NCBI GenBank assembly: GCA_016124735.1
Contig: WGMZ01000031.1
Span: forward strand, 1 to 52,146
Source of the DNA: Bacteroidota bacterium
GTDB taxonomy: Bacteria; Bacteroidota; Bacteroidia; UBA8524
DNA: 52,146 nt
Direction: 5' to 3'
The notes below the pieces were generated by a model that was given only the letters and a program-made list of their open reading frames with translations, searched no databases and had not been told where the DNA came from. A program made the translations under genes and the position numbers. This document shows positions 13,851-45,055 of the stretch, one piece after another. Position 1 is the first letter of the stretch; the number at the start of each line of letters is the position of its first letter.

Positions 13851-14023
13851 CCCTTCTTCACTAAAGATCCGACGGACAAGAAAGGCGCAAAGTCTTCGTC
13901 GCGGATTGATTGTCTGATATCGGGAACGGATTACACAAATTTCACGGAATTAATGGTTCATCTGAATTACTCGGAAGCAAACGAATTGTTAAGGATTATT
14001 CGTCGGGATTCGTATCGCATATG

Positions 14024-14515
14024 CCAAAATCATCTGCGACTCCGCGTTTATAATTCACGTGCGACAAAAACATATTCGTCGCAAACAAACCGCGGCTCCG
14101 TCATGCGCAAGCCAAAATCATCTGCGACTCTGCGTTTATAATTCACGTGCGACAAAAACATATTCGTCGCAAACAAACCGCGGCTCCGTCATGCGCAAGC
14201 CAAAATCATCTGCGACTCTGCGTTTATAATTCACGCGCGACAAAAACATATTCGTCGCAAACAAACCGCGGCTCCGTCATGCGCAAGCCAAAATCATCTG
14301 CGACTCTGCGTTTATAATTCACGCGCAACAAAAACATAATCGGCTGCAAACAAACCGCGGCTCCGTCATGCGCAAGCAAAAATCATCTGCGACTCCGCGT
14401 TTAAAATTCACGCGCAACAAAAACATAATCGGCTGCAAACAAACCGCGGCTCCGTCATGCGCAAGCAAAAATCATCTGCGACTCCGCGTTTAAAATTCAC
14501 GCGCGACAAAACCAA
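14024..14515. repeat. Minisatellite of 88-89 bp units
   Basis: The marker CAAAATCATCTGCGACT (or CAAAAATCATC) recurs at about 14024, 14112, 14200, 14288, 14376 and 14465: three steps of 88 bp, then two of 89 after a one-base gain (CATATTCGTCGC becomes CATAATCGGCTGC). About five and a half units are present. Each holds a short inverted repeat (GCGAC near GTCGC) and GC-rich text around ACCGCGGCTCCGTCATGCGC. The two rightmost units share private changes (TTTAAAATTC, AAGCAAAAATC), as expected from local duplication. An ORF of 113 codons crosses it but is an artefact. It fills the gap between the converging ends of pyrE and rlmN, where no other terminator is visible. Confidence 0.9.
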
Positions 14516-20899: not shown

Positions 20900-22135
20900 T
20901 CAATAAATCACAACTCTTTGAGTACCCAGGCTTTGTCCAGCCTTTTTCAATTCTACAAAATAAGTACCTGGACTCAGATGTGTTGATACTGTATTAGATT
21001 GATAGGTTTGTTTGTAAACTTCTTTCCCCAACATATCCATGACACATATTTCTGTTGGCTCATCTTTAATCTCAATAGCAAAGGTTCCATGCGAAGGGTT
21101 CGGATATATTCTCCATGGCATTTCACCAGGGCTGTTTGGTATTTGAACAGATGTAAGTGCCTGATACCAAGCCAGAATTTGACTTTCATCCAAGGCCCTG
21201 TTGCAGAAATGCAAATCATCGACGGCACCGTTAAAAAAGGATCCTGCACCCAATCTTGCACCAACCCATAATTTGTTTCCACTTTGATCAAAACCCGCAG
21301 GTGCATTTGTTAATTCAAATCCAACCAATTGACCATTAATATAGAATCGATGAACCGAGTCATTACGCGACATGGCCAAATGATACCACCCATTCATGTT
21401 TACGGGAACTAGTACCGCTGAATCGTATGCCTTTGCATTTGAATTCGGAGTCGTATACGACCAGGTAGTGAAGCCGTTATACACTCCCAGATAGCCATTC
21501 GCCAGATTAAAACCATGATCATAGGTTCCATCACCAAGGTTAACAATATCCCCTTGCTGTCCACTACCAGGCAGATGATAAGGTTTTACCCATACTCCAA
21601 TAGACAATTCTCCAGTTGTTGCAAGTGAATCGGCATTGCTCAATTCCAAATATTGATTGACTCCATTGAACTGAATGGCTGAATTTGGGTTACCAAATCG
21701 GTCCTGAGTAAAGGTACCTCCATGATTCGTTAAGTTATAACCTTGTCCACCGGAATCCAGGGTATTATTCTGAAATTTATAATCCAGACAAACAGGTCCA
21801 GGTAAGACAGGTCCATGTGAATAGGGTTGATACCATGCTTTGATTTGTGCCTCATCTAATGCCCTATTGCAAATATGTATGTCATCTACTGCACCGTTAA
21901 AATAGGAGCCTGTACCAAGCCTCACTCCAATCCATAATTTATTACCCGTGGTATCAAAACCGGCAGCCGCGTTCACCAACTCATAGCCTACCAAAATGCC
22001 ATTAATATAAAAACGATGTACCGAATCATTGCGCGACATTGCCAAGTGATACCACTCATTCATGTGAATAGGCACGTTGCCTGCCGAATCATATGCCTTC
22101 GCATTAGAGTTCAGCGTTGTGTACGACCATGCAGT
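20900..22135 (-). pseudogene. C-terminal fragment of the IS-interrupted LamG/T9SS surface protein
   Basis: These 411 codons continue, in frame, the protein that starts at 24209; the IS element at 22144-23147 separates them. The fragment holds the second half of LamG domain 2, a complete LamG domain 3 and a C-terminal type IX secretion sorting domain (from WRIYPNPSHGTFAI to QRVVIY). Domains 2 and 3 are very similar (both contain FQNNTLDSGGQGYNLTNHGG and NSNAKAYDS), pointing to an internal duplication. The open frame here reaches back into the IS as far as 22315, but no natural start or signal peptide is present, so this half is unlikely to be secreted. Removing the IS and one target copy restores a 765-residue ORF. 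Confidence 0.9.
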
Positions 22136-22143
22136 AAATCCAT
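22136..22143. repeat. Target-site duplication, left copy
   Basis: AAATCCAT is repeated directly at 23148-23155 on the far side of the IS. Eight bases is the usual duplication length for IS1595-family elements. Confidence 0.92.
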
Positions 22144-22202
22144 CATGAGTCTCCGTTTCCTTACCACTACGTCGAGTTATGGCGGTCTGAGTTGAGATAT
22201 TG

Positions 22203-22218
22203 CCTGTAAAAATACAGG
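22203..22218 (+). promoter_or_regulatory. Hairpin just before the transposase start
   Basis: CCTGTA and TACAGG are exact complements around an AAAA loop, ending two bases before the ATG at 22221. Such a hairpin can form in read-through transcripts and reduce initiation; that effect is inferred. Confidence 0.45.
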
Positions 22219-22220
22219 AT

Positions 22221-23135
22221 ATGACACATTTAGAGTTCTTTACACTTTTCGGAACAGAGCAACAATGCAAGGCACACTGGATAGAATTACGTAAAAAGCA
22301 AGGGGTTATTTGCAAGAAGTGTGGTTGCCAGAAGCACTATTGGCTTTCTAAAAAGGAGCAATTTCAGTGCGCTAAATGCAGGTTTAGAACAACCTTACGA
22401 AGCGGAACTATCTTCGATTCCAGCCATTTACCCTATCGAGATTGGTATATCGCTATGTATCTGATGACCTCCAGCAAGAAAGGAATATCTGCATTAGAAC
22501 TTCAACGACAGTTGGGGCGCAAACGGTATGAACCAGTTTGGTGTCTGATGCATAAGATTAGGGATTTAATGGCTTACCGTGAAGATCAATACAAGTTAAA
22601 TGGAGAGATTGAGGTAGATGAAATCTTCATTCGAGTAGCCAATACCCTTGAAGTGGATGAAAAGCTCCAGGCTGGTAAGGGAAGTCAGCGTCAGGCCACG
22701 GCTATCATCGCTATTGAATCATCCAAAGAAAATGACAAAGGGCCCAAAGGAGGAAAAAGAATGGGCTATGTAAAAGTTCAACCAATCAAAGGTCACGGGG
22801 CTATTGTGGCAAAACGGGCATTAGAAAAGATGACAGAAACTTTGCGGAAAATTGTAAGCGACAAAGGACATGAGTTCGGAACCCTCTCAACTTTAGCAGA
22901 GCATGAGGCAGTACTGTCTACACAGGAAAATAATGACGAACATTTGCCTTGGATAGGCGTAATAACAGCGAATATTAAACGGGCCTTTCTCGGAATCTAC
23001 CACTCAATAAAAAGAGAGAACCTCGCGCGGTATTTAGCCGAATTCTGCTATAAGGTTAATCGGAGAAAGTTTGGGATGGAAATCTTTGAAAGACTTCTAA
23101 ACATAAGCGTTCTGCCTAAATTCGTGGTAAACTAG
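22221..23135 (+). CDS. IS1595-family transposase
   Basis: The 304-residue protein starts at ATG 22221 (MTHLEFFTLFGTEQQ). Residues ~30-55 form the zinc ribbon of this family (CKKCGCQKHYW, then CAKCRFRTT), followed by SGTIFDSSHLPYRDWYIAMY. The catalytic ISXO2-like DDE domain begins at GEIEVDEIFI (first aspartate) with the second acidic residue probably in VSDKGHEFGTL; the C-terminal helix RENLARYLAEFCYKVNRRKF is family-typical. The usual 'VDEtyvGG' is here VDEIFIRV, a mild departure. A TTG at 22200 could add seven residues but would pass through the hairpin. Confidence 0.92.
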   Translation: MTHLEFFTLFGTEQQCKAHWIELRKKQGVICKKCGCQKHYWLSKKEQFQCAKCRFRTTLRSGTIFDSSHLPYRDWYIAMYLMTSSKKGISALELQRQLGRKRYEPVWCLMHKIRDLMAYREDQYKLNGEIEVDEIFIRVANTLEVDEKLQAGKGSQRQATAIIAIESSKENDKGPKGGKRMGYVKVQPIKGHGAIVAKRALEKMTETLRKIVSDKGHEFGTLSTLAEHEAVLSTQENNDEHLPWIGVITANIKRAFLGIYHSIKRENLARYLAEFCYKVNRRKFGMEIFERLLNISVLPKFVVN

Positions 23136-23147
23136 CGGAGACTCATG

Positions 23148-23155
23148 AAATCCAT
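23148..23155. repeat. Target-site duplication, right copy
   Basis: AAATCCAT, identical to 22136-22143. On the minus strand it encodes part of an Asn-Gly-Phe run and the reading frame of the host gene resumes exactly after the left copy. Confidence 0.92.
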
Positions 23156-24209
23156 TGTATGTATTCAAGTACCCGTTCGCCAGATTCAATCCATGATCAT
23201 AATTTGCATCTCCCATATTGACAATATCTCCCTGCTGTCCATTCCCTGGTAAATTGTATGGCTTTACCCAGACTCCAATCGTCATTTCTCCGGTGGTAGC
23301 AATCGAATCTGCATTGCTTAATTCCAGGTATTGATTGATTCCATTGAACTGAATGGCTGAGTTCGGGTGACCGAATCGGTCCTGAGTGTAAGTTCCTCCA
23401 TGATTTGTTAGGTTATATCCTTGTCCACCAGAATCCAGTGTATTGTTTTGAAACTTGTATTCAATACATGCCGAATTTGGCACATGGAACGGAGGAGGCA
23501 CAATCTCATCTGAATATTGGTATAAATTGTTTACTTCCGTTGCACTTAAACTTCTGTTATATGCCCTGAAATCATCGATTGCTCCATTGGCAAACATGTT
23601 ATTTCCAATTCTACAGCCTAACCATAGTTTTGTGATACTCGTAAAGGCCGGATTACTGGAAGCAACATCAGTGTCCAATAATTGGCCGTTAGCATAGAAC
23701 TTTAATGTATTTCCATCTCTCACGAGAACAATATGGTACCAGTGGTTGAGGCTAACAGCGAAAGTTGGATCATAGGCCGAGGCATTTCCAGAACCCGAAT
23801 TATAACTGAAAACTGTAAAGCCACTATATCCCAAATATCCATTCGCCAAGGTTGTTCCGTGGTCGTAGGTGGTATTGCCAAGATTGACAAACATTGCATT
23901 TTGTCCACTTCCTGGCCAGGCATCTGGTCGAATCCATGCCGCCATACTGAAAGAATTGGTGGCCATGAAATCGGCATTATTCAATAACAGGTAATCATTC
24001 TGCCCGTCAAATTTGATCGCCTCATTTTGGTGACCAAATCGATCAGTAGTATAAACCGGTCCATTGTATGCATTGAATACTCGGTTATGACCACTGTTGT
24101 CATTTAAATTATTGCCAAACTTCAGAAAAATCTGCAAGCTATCTGTCAATGATTGACCAGAAGAGGCAAGAACAATAAGAGAAAAAAGGAGAGTAAAATA
24201 TTTACGCAT
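23148..24209 (-). pseudogene. N-terminal fragment of the IS-interrupted LamG/T9SS surface protein
   Basis: The natural start is ATG 24209 with signal peptide MRKYFTLLFSLIVLASSGQS. The 354 native codons cover LamG (concanavalin-like jelly-roll) domain 1 at about residues 25-235 and the first half of LamG domain 2. Translation would run on into the IS for 16 foreign residues and stop at 23097. The product lacks the T9SS sorting domain, so it could reach the periplasm but should not be exported or surface-attached. LamG domains generally bind glycans or act in adhesion; the true ligand is unknown. The other half is at 20900-22135. Confidence 0.9.
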
Positions 24210-28847: not shown

Positions 28848-30683
28848 CTACTGCTTTTGTACTTTAAATGTTTTCACTCCTTTAGGACTGATTACCTGGA
28901 GGAAATACACGCCTACTTTGCAGGCATTGAGATCAACTTGCCCTGACTGAATCATCTCGCCAGCGGCAATTTCTTTTCCGGTCACATCCACCACGCGGTA
29001 TTGTATTGCTTCGGAAGTTTCTATGTTCAACACATTTCTGGTTGGGTTAGGATAGATACGAATCTCGCCCGGTTGAGGCATTGCAATTCCGGTCGGATCT
29101 GCCGGTGCCATACCGCATTTAGAGCTGCGTTCAATCTGACCTCTGATTTCACCATTTGCGAACATGTCGGTATGAATATTGAGATACATCATACCGTTTC
29201 TTAGATCCGTTGCTTGTTGTGGATCCGAAATCATCTCATATCCCATAGCCATATCGTTCATGCCTGTTTTCATAAACCAGTCGCTCAGATTGAATGTAAC
29301 TGCTCCGTCGATTCCCCGTGCCCCGGTATGAATATGCGCACCGGTAATCTTTCCGCTCAGACCCGTTACATTTACGGCCACGAACATATTCGATTGATCT
29401 CGGTCAACGGATACGAAACCAATTCCCCGTGCCGCAGAACCTACATGCGCAGTTTCTTGCAAAGCATCCAATTCAATTGGGTAACCTTCTCGTAAGTAAC
29501 GATATACCTGGCCACGGATTTCTCCATTTGGATTCAATGCGGTGTGCACATTAAGGTATACCTCTCCGGAGAGCATTTTACTAATAAAATCAGGATTGAT
29601 TTCTGCTCCGCTTACCACTCCCGTGATAATATTTCCAGTGACAAAAGGGGTTAGACTTACCAGAACATTTCCGCTTGTTCCCATGGCTCCGTCGTGTAAA
29701 TGAGCTCCTGTGATATCGCCAGACATTCCGGATACCTGAATCAAAAAATGGAGAGAGTCCAACCCCTGATACAAATGGAAATGTGCCACACCATGCGGAT
29801 CATTCATTCCCATCACCATTGAAGTTTCCTGTGCTTTATCTAAAACGGCATCAAATCCAAGCGTTGGCAGTTTGGCAATTTGACCACGAATTTCACCTGC
29901 GGGGTTCATTGAAGTGTGCAGATTTATATAAGCCATGCCACTCATTAATGAATCCACCAAGCCGGGAGTCACTTCTTTCATGCCATGAATTCTATTTCCG
30001 TCTATCAAATCAGTGAGACTTAATATAACAGGTCCGGACATTCCTTCAGCAGCCCAGTGAATATGTGCACCGGTAGGATTTTCAGAGAGACTGTCGGCAA
30101 TCACTTCAATCCAAAGCCATTTCTTGTCGCGACTTGCTTTCATAACAGCAAGTCCTGTTGCCATTGAGCCCATTACTCCATCTGTTTCCTGTGAGGTAGT
30201 CAAGAAAGAATAATAGCCAAAATCCGTTTCAGCCATAACCTGGCCACGGATTTCGCCATTTGGATTTGATGCGGTGTGAAGATTCAGATAGGTATTACCG
30301 CTCAACATATCTGCAATAAGGGCCGGATTGAGGTCATTCCCTGTAACCATCCCATAGATTTGTTCCTTGTCTATGTCACCACTCAAATTGACAAGCACAT
30401 CTCCATTCATTCCCATGGCTCCATGATGAATGTGAATACCGTTTGCATCTCCGCTCAACCCAAACCAACTCAGGCGCACACATAGCGTATCTCTGGTTTC
30501 ATTTAGATAGAGGGTTGCAATACCATTTCCATCTGTGGTTACAGCTGGAACTTCCTGGTCGCCACTGAGGTGAGCAGTAAATAAGATCTTAGGGCCCAGA
30601 TGAGAGGCGAATGTTGAAGTTGCTACAATAAATGCCAGCAACAGTAGGTACATTTTCTTCATAATTGACATTGTTTCCTTCAT
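28848..30683 (-). CDS. Four-CHRD-domain secreted protein with T9SS sorting domain
   Basis: The 611-residue protein has a signal peptide (MKKMYLLLLAFIVATSTFAS) and four CHRD repeats beginning at about residues 33, 155, 280 and 400. Each shows the family core 'GaHIH.G..G..G.vlv.L' and ends '..YlNlHT..nPnGEIRGQv'. A C-terminal type IX sorting domain starts at IRIYPNPTRNVLNIE and ends KTFKVQKQ. CHRD domains occur in chordin and in bacterial extracellular proteins; no activity is established, though their paired histidines suggest metal binding. The start could be any of three close Met codons (30683, 30671, 30662). The lower flank has a strong terminator, so this is probably a single-gene transcript or the end of the dsbD-gmhA one. 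Confidence 0.88.
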   Translation of the reverse strand: MKETMSIMKKMYLLLLAFIVATSTFASHLGPKILFTAHLSGDQEVPAVTTDGNGIATLYLNETRDTLCVRLSWFGLSGDANGIHIHHGAMGMNGDVLVNLSGDIDKEQIYGMVTGNDLNPALIADMLSGNTYLNLHTASNPNGEIRGQVMAETDFGYYSFLTTSQETDGVMGSMATGLAVMKASRDKKWLWIEVIADSLSENPTGAHIHWAAEGMSGPVILSLTDLIDGNRIHGMKEVTPGLVDSLMSGMAYINLHTSMNPAGEIRGQIAKLPTLGFDAVLDKAQETSMVMGMNDPHGVAHFHLYQGLDSLHFLIQVSGMSGDITGAHLHDGAMGTSGNVLVSLTPFVTGNIITGVVSGAEINPDFISKMLSGEVYLNVHTALNPNGEIRGQVYRYLREGYPIELDALQETAHVGSAARGIGFVSVDRDQSNMFVAVNVTGLSGKITGAHIHTGARGIDGAVTFNLSDWFMKTGMNDMAMGYEMISDPQQATDLRNGMMYLNIHTDMFANGEIRGQIERSSKCGMAPADPTGIAMPQPGEIRIYPNPTRNVLNIETSEAIQYRVVDVTGKEIAAGEMIQSGQVDLNACKVGVYFLQVISPKGVKTFKVQKQ

Positions 30684-44794: not shown

Positions 44795-44992
44795 GCACCA
44801 AATTCAATAAATAATTCGCCCGTCAGCGCCGGTATTTTATTGAATCTGTAGGAAAGGCCGATTTGAAACGAATTACCAATTACATGCGTATCCGTTTATT
44901 TCCCACAATACCTTTTTATTGAAGGATTCATCATCCATTTTTCTTTTTTTTAGATAAAAAGGAAGAAAAAAATCGCGCTTGCTTCCTCAATG

Positions 44993-45055
44993 ACCCGCTG
45001 TGCCTTCCTTCGCTATCCCGCACGTGCGGGATTGCCGCTCCTTCAGGCAGCGGGT
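44993..45055. repeat. Composite nested palindrome
   Basis: Outer arms ACCCGCTG (44993-45000) and CAGCGGGT (45048-45055) enclose a perfect 18-bp palindrome, ATCCCGCACGTGCGGGAT (45015-45032). It looks like a repetitive intergenic element; similar T-rich plus GC-palindrome text is, from memory, dispersed in other Bacteroidota genomes. Confidence 0.6.

Follow-up and report, generated by a model that had tools for sequence, protein, structure and literature searches.

The window analysed here, a stretch of 52,146 nucleotides from a Bacteroidota genome, contains a minus-strand gene that is split in two by an insertion sequence (IS) of the IS1595 family. The N-terminal part of the gene (23148..24209, codons 1-354) codes for a hydrophobic N-terminus that resembles a signal peptide by eye, a first LamG repeat (about 23529-24008), and the first part of a second one. 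The C-terminal part (20900..22135, codons 355-765 plus the stop), delimited from domain matches and from the joined frame, codes for the rest of LamG repeat 2, for LamG repeat 3 (about 21176-21664), and for a type IX sorting tail (Por_Secre_tail, 20906-21109). Between them lies the 1004-bp IS (22144..23147, plus strand, antisense to the broken gene), which we recognised by reading of the sequence, by its ends, and by domain matches.

Direct reading shows that the inverted ends of the element match at 12/12 bp (CATGAGTCTCCG at 22144..22155 on the plus strand and CGGAGACTCATG at 23136..23147 on the minus strand), and that the same 8 bp, AAATCCAT, flank it on each side (22136..22143 and 23148..23155), which is the target duplication expected of the IS1595 family. 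The extent and the 8-bp target copies that had been proposed in the initial annotation are correct to the base. The boundary at CATG is independently fixed by a cousin IS of this genome that also has CATG ends, and whose flanks diverge exactly there. In a distant relative (G404), two elements have ends ATGAATGTCCG and 8-bp target copies, while a scripted search for the ends of ISBbi1 (L093) and of the copies in two further genomes (G157 and G357) found none.

The transposase gene (22221..23135, plus strand) codes for a protein of 304 aa with no internal stops and two IS1595 domains, Zn_ribbon_IS1595 (28.5 bits, Pfam cut-off 25.4) and DDE_Tnp_IS1595 (60.9 bits, curated Pfam cut-off 27), and it matches the NCBIfam IS1595 transposase model NF033547 with 152.6 bits (cut-off 75). 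These matches support the IS1595 type suggested earlier, and the ends (12/12), the stop-free transposase frame, and the identical AAATCCAT copies are all intact, as had also been stated. In an alignment with six blastp-confirmed relatives (30-39% identity; of ten loci, L078, L082, L087, and L084 were left out for a wrong or missing frame), the transposase retains E-x-DE, the second D, and N-x-K-R, the N being common to 5/6 relatives and the K to 6/6. We take DDNK to be the subgroup label for this transposase. Close relatives were found in none of the searched collections, the best full-length identity outside the genome itself being ~41%. Among 72,556 plasmid records, 292 match the transposase, all below 60% identity, and the best of them (41%) are ISBbi1-type elements of Bacteroides, Myroides, and Sphingobacterium. 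In a sample of the phylum, matches at E 1e-30 occur in 9/395 genomes, own genome included; at the DNA level, fragments of the element are present in one of the 59 relatives searched beside the own genome (G004, 69-71%), and no match to the transposase was confirmed in viral contigs. According to PMC8101967, an N-terminal zinc ribbon is found in every IS1595 group except IS1016. Judged by its sequence, the window IS adds a new member to an IS family that is already known.

Concerning the broken gene, the N-terminal part (24209-23148) is 1062 nt or 354 codons long, and the C-terminal part (22135-20900) is 1236 nt or 412 codons long, stop counted. When they are joined, the only stop among the 766 codons is the last one, which leaves one open frame of 765 residues. 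This agrees with the uninterrupted 765-codon frame that had been claimed to follow from removal of the element and of one AAATCCAT, and the codon count confirms that the N half ends on a codon at 23148 and the C half resumes at 22135. In the present allele, the N half reads 16 codons into the element, up to a stop at 23097 (370 aa), and the C half is open from 22315, its first ~57 residues being derived from the element. Laminin_G_3 and Por_Secre_tail both exceed their Pfam cut-offs: the N half has one complete Laminin_G_3 repeat, and the C half has two LamG stretches and a Por_Secre_tail (40.4 bits against a cut-off of 27 in Pfam, 40.6 against 23 in NCBIfam). Pfam and NCBIfam matches in the halves therefore uphold the previous description of a LamG surface protein with a T9SS tail. 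The signal-like N-terminus (by eye) and the sorting tail lie in separate frames in the present allele, and in one polypeptide only in the joined frame. Two other domain candidates were rejected: the toxin domain Toxin_R_bind_N in the N half (17.0 bits, below its cut-off of 23.8, against 110 bits for Laminin_G_3 on the same stretch), and TafC, whose NCBIfam match reaches merely 39-40 bits against a cut-off of 410.

The insertion site lies in the second of the three Laminin_G_3 repeats. The 5' half of LamG repeat 2 (23170..23468, minus strand) is an 81% identical direct repeat of the 5' half of LamG repeat 3 (21492..21790, minus strand), which lies on the opposite side of the element and is an internal paralogue with an uninterrupted arrangement. 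Read across the junction, repeat 2 aligns without gaps to the intact repeat 3, which lies 222 codons further on; pN and pS are 0.08 and 0.70 for the N side, and 0.16 and 0.76 for the C side. Such a gap-free alignment, with pN far below pS, indicates strong purifying selection on both parts before the break, and that the junction reproduces the original coding order. The alignment with repeat 3 takes the place of an empty site within the gene itself. By simple arithmetic (equal base frequencies), the odds of finding an exact 8-bp repeat where the boundaries were predicted are about 1 in 65,000; as the interrupted LamG repeat also matches its intact counterpart to either side of the junction, a chance origin is excluded. 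No same-species genome with an empty site was found, and the polarity of the insertion is read from the target duplication and the internal paralogue.

We could not find a second intact copy of the window IS in the genome, and its donor was not seen. The next-best copies are an 81% match that ends at 451 bp (C22), a decayed 66% copy (C28), and cousins at contig ends. The cousin IS, whose ends (CATGA...) are ~75% identical to those of the window IS, is present at eight contig ends. Each of its three left-end junctions has a partner among the five right-end junctions that shares the identical 8-bp copy with it (AAAAATTA, AATAACTA, and TAAAATTT). This multi-copy cousin IS breaks the assembly, and the 8-bp copies link contigs C42/C53, C14/C7, and C32/C24, while right-end junctions on C20 and C8 have no partner among the junctions seen. 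In one place (L010, C32 near 14017-14035), a cousin IS has landed no more than a few bases from the terminus of a transposase-less element.

The arrangement might be an assembly chimera rather than a real insertion, as the genome is a draft of 53 contigs, many of which end in the cousin IS. We regard this as extremely unlikely: the window element is single-copy, which makes a repeat-driven misjoin improbable, and a misjoin would not yield 8-bp copies at both ends or a paralogue alignment across the junction. The locus might also be an old pseudogene whose frames stayed open by chance. We addressed this with a simple model of drift, run with a transition bias of 2 and with indels set at 5% of substitutions, in which the probability that both halves stay open falls from 43% at 0.5% neutral drift to 20% at 1%, 6% at 2%, 2% at 3%, and 0.25% at 5%. 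Identical target copies add little to the age estimate, since they have a 17% chance at 10% drift and taken alone would allow an old event of up to about that divergence; however, the low chance of two open halves at 2% and 3% drift makes an old pseudogene very improbable. Because both halves are unlikely to be open (about 6%) beyond about 2% drift, the insertion can be considered recent within limits. By this simple model, it would lie at about 2% neutral drift or less, a bound that does not allow dating, and the young event proposed earlier is supported as relative youth.

The initial annotation had further suggested that the gene may be phase-variable or present in a mixed population, which would call for precise excision of the IS at sufficient frequency. 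Intact target copies and transposase, together with a restorable frame, are compatible with such a switch, and reversible inactivation by IS elements has a general precedent in Pseudomonas atlantica and with IS1301 in siaA of Neisseria meningitidis (PMC5493358, which also discusses IS5). However, a search for the joined junction, tolerating up to 3 mismatches in the own assembly, gave 0 matches there and 0 in viral contigs. The N half matches in 20/60 genomes, own included, at E 1e-10, the best-scoring ones outside showing 30-33% identity, and among the 59 relatives searched for an empty-site orthologue none has a close copy of the gene. A search of the genome_contigs collection gave 4 distant loci (24-32% identity). 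In the syntenic interval of the same-genus genome G001, both flanking genes are present, as well as a 42% relative of the 20036-20803 gene, with neither LamG half, and in G003 and G004 the arrangements at the corresponding interval differ. Moreover, an excision that left both target copies in place would shift the frame and introduce a stop at residue 364, so that precise excision alone restores the full protein, and we saw no sign here that IS1595 elements excise precisely at useful rates. A reversible switch is therefore very unlikely, and the earlier suggestion found no support in these searches. Slightly less probable still is a repair by recombination between the direct 5' halves of LamG2 and LamG3, which would delete the IS along with 222 codons. 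These halves are 1678 bp apart (666 nt, or 222 codons, without the IS), are 81% identical over 299 bp, and would yield an in-frame product of 543 residues with two LamG repeats; however, efficient exchange would call for a higher identity and for longer exact tracts than the 21 bp seen here, and no such product was encountered. As a side observation in G001, a CorA-like gene (L042, 12081-13029) is spread over two frames, which may reflect either a frameshift or an error of assembly.

We consider it very probable that a recent IS1595-family insertion knocked out a gene for a type IX surface protein with three LamG repeats, in a way that is practically irreversible. A member of the family would have transposed into codon 354, copying 8 bp of target (AAATCCAT), and the gene would now be a null allele. 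The N half would give an exported fragment of 370 residues that has a single complete LamG repeat but lacks the sorting tail, and the C half would have neither an export signal nor an evident start. It is a sound expectation from the domain layout that neither half would be displayed at the surface, as had been anticipated. The genome has 104 matches to Por_Secre_tail, 101 of them over the cut-off, and at least two other tailed LamG genes, both single-LamG, are present on contig C28 (at 109703-110650, and at 70197-71129, where the matched stretch contains one stop). Given ~101 T9SS-tailed reading frames, the loss of this one LamG protein is probably tolerated, as many similar cargo genes would remain, and the change would in practice be one-way. 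The most fitting reading of the gene is a plain knock-out by an ordinary insertional event. It would be a textbook example of how an insertion sequence causes the loss of a gene, in which the prior state is visible in an internal repeat without the need for a sister genome. Elsewhere in the window, a nearby T9SS-tailed gene (28848-30683) has four CHRD stretches.

The 3.11-Mb genome contains 18 exact occurrences of the 12-bp end of the IS and 17 more that differ from it by one mismatch, against 2 occurrences in all for the backward control and ~0.4 exact matches expected by arithmetic. Many of these matches are the left ends of ~500-bp elements without transposase. With a 512-bp copy as query, and with 40 of the 63 first-look candidates scored, the own genome yielded at least 54 matching pieces, at least 15 of which, query copy included, span at least 490/512 bases with 74-100% identity. 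Examples are L095 (C6:25476-25987), L096 (C49:882-1395), and L111 (C24), and a fragment corresponding to positions 365-512 of the 512-bp copy lies in the window itself (44883..45016, minus strand, by sequence match). Of the four relatives searched from the bacterial family of this genome, G001, G002, and G003 gave no matches, and G004 has one 100-bp piece. Target copies are identical (8/8) in 6/16 of the elements checked and nearly so (7/8) in 3/16, the remaining 7/16 having no clear pair, and a transposase-sized frame is absent from the one copy checked for it. The left 24 bp are up to 22/24 identical to those of the window IS (L096 copy), whereas the two are different on the right (CGGATACACATG in the ~500-bp elements, CGGAGACTCATG in the window IS). 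The family has the IS-like ends, the absence of a transposase, and the target copies that characterise MITEs. A search of Rfam with three loci gave 0 matches, and folding of one 512-bp copy gave a z of -1.84. Very short elements with the same ends were also observed, one of 87 bp (L067, C19:28236) with a perfect 8-bp target copy, ATTAATTT, and one of 99 bp (L045, C4:19354-19452).

The similarity of the ends suggests that the window IS may mobilise these ~500-bp elements. It might even be the last intact autonomous copy in the genome, driving a large, lineage-private family of transposase-less elements, a tentative proposal to which we give somewhat less than an even chance. If true, the breakage of the surface gene would be a by-product of the same machinery that expanded this family. 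The wider value would lie in an IS1595-ended non-autonomous family that is abundant here and may help explain the rearrangement of this genome. In the literature on IS1595 with MITE or with Bacteroidetes, the two topics covered, we could not find any description of it.

With respect to known systems, the broken gene resembles T9SS surface proteins with Laminin_G_3 and Por_Secre_tail in having both domains and, by eye, an exported N-terminus, but differs from them by its three LamG repeats and by the lack of a close orthologue in the searched relatives. The window IS shares with the IS1595 family, and with ISBbi1-like elements of Bacteroidota, a zinc ribbon together with DDE_Tnp_IS1595, 8-bp target copies, and a single gene. 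However, its transposase has only ~41% protein identity to the plasmid copies annotated as ISBbi1 family, and its ends start with CATGA, whereas ISApl4 starts with GG (GGGGCTGTACTAGA). For the ~500-bp elements, a comparison is offered by MITEs such as MITEPye1 (PMC11578231), which are mobilised in trans by IS transposases and are, like the ~500-bp family, short, transposase-less, with IS-like ends and flanking target copies. MITEPye1 is tied to IS1182, whereas the present family shows IS1595-like ends and is found in many copies within a single genome.
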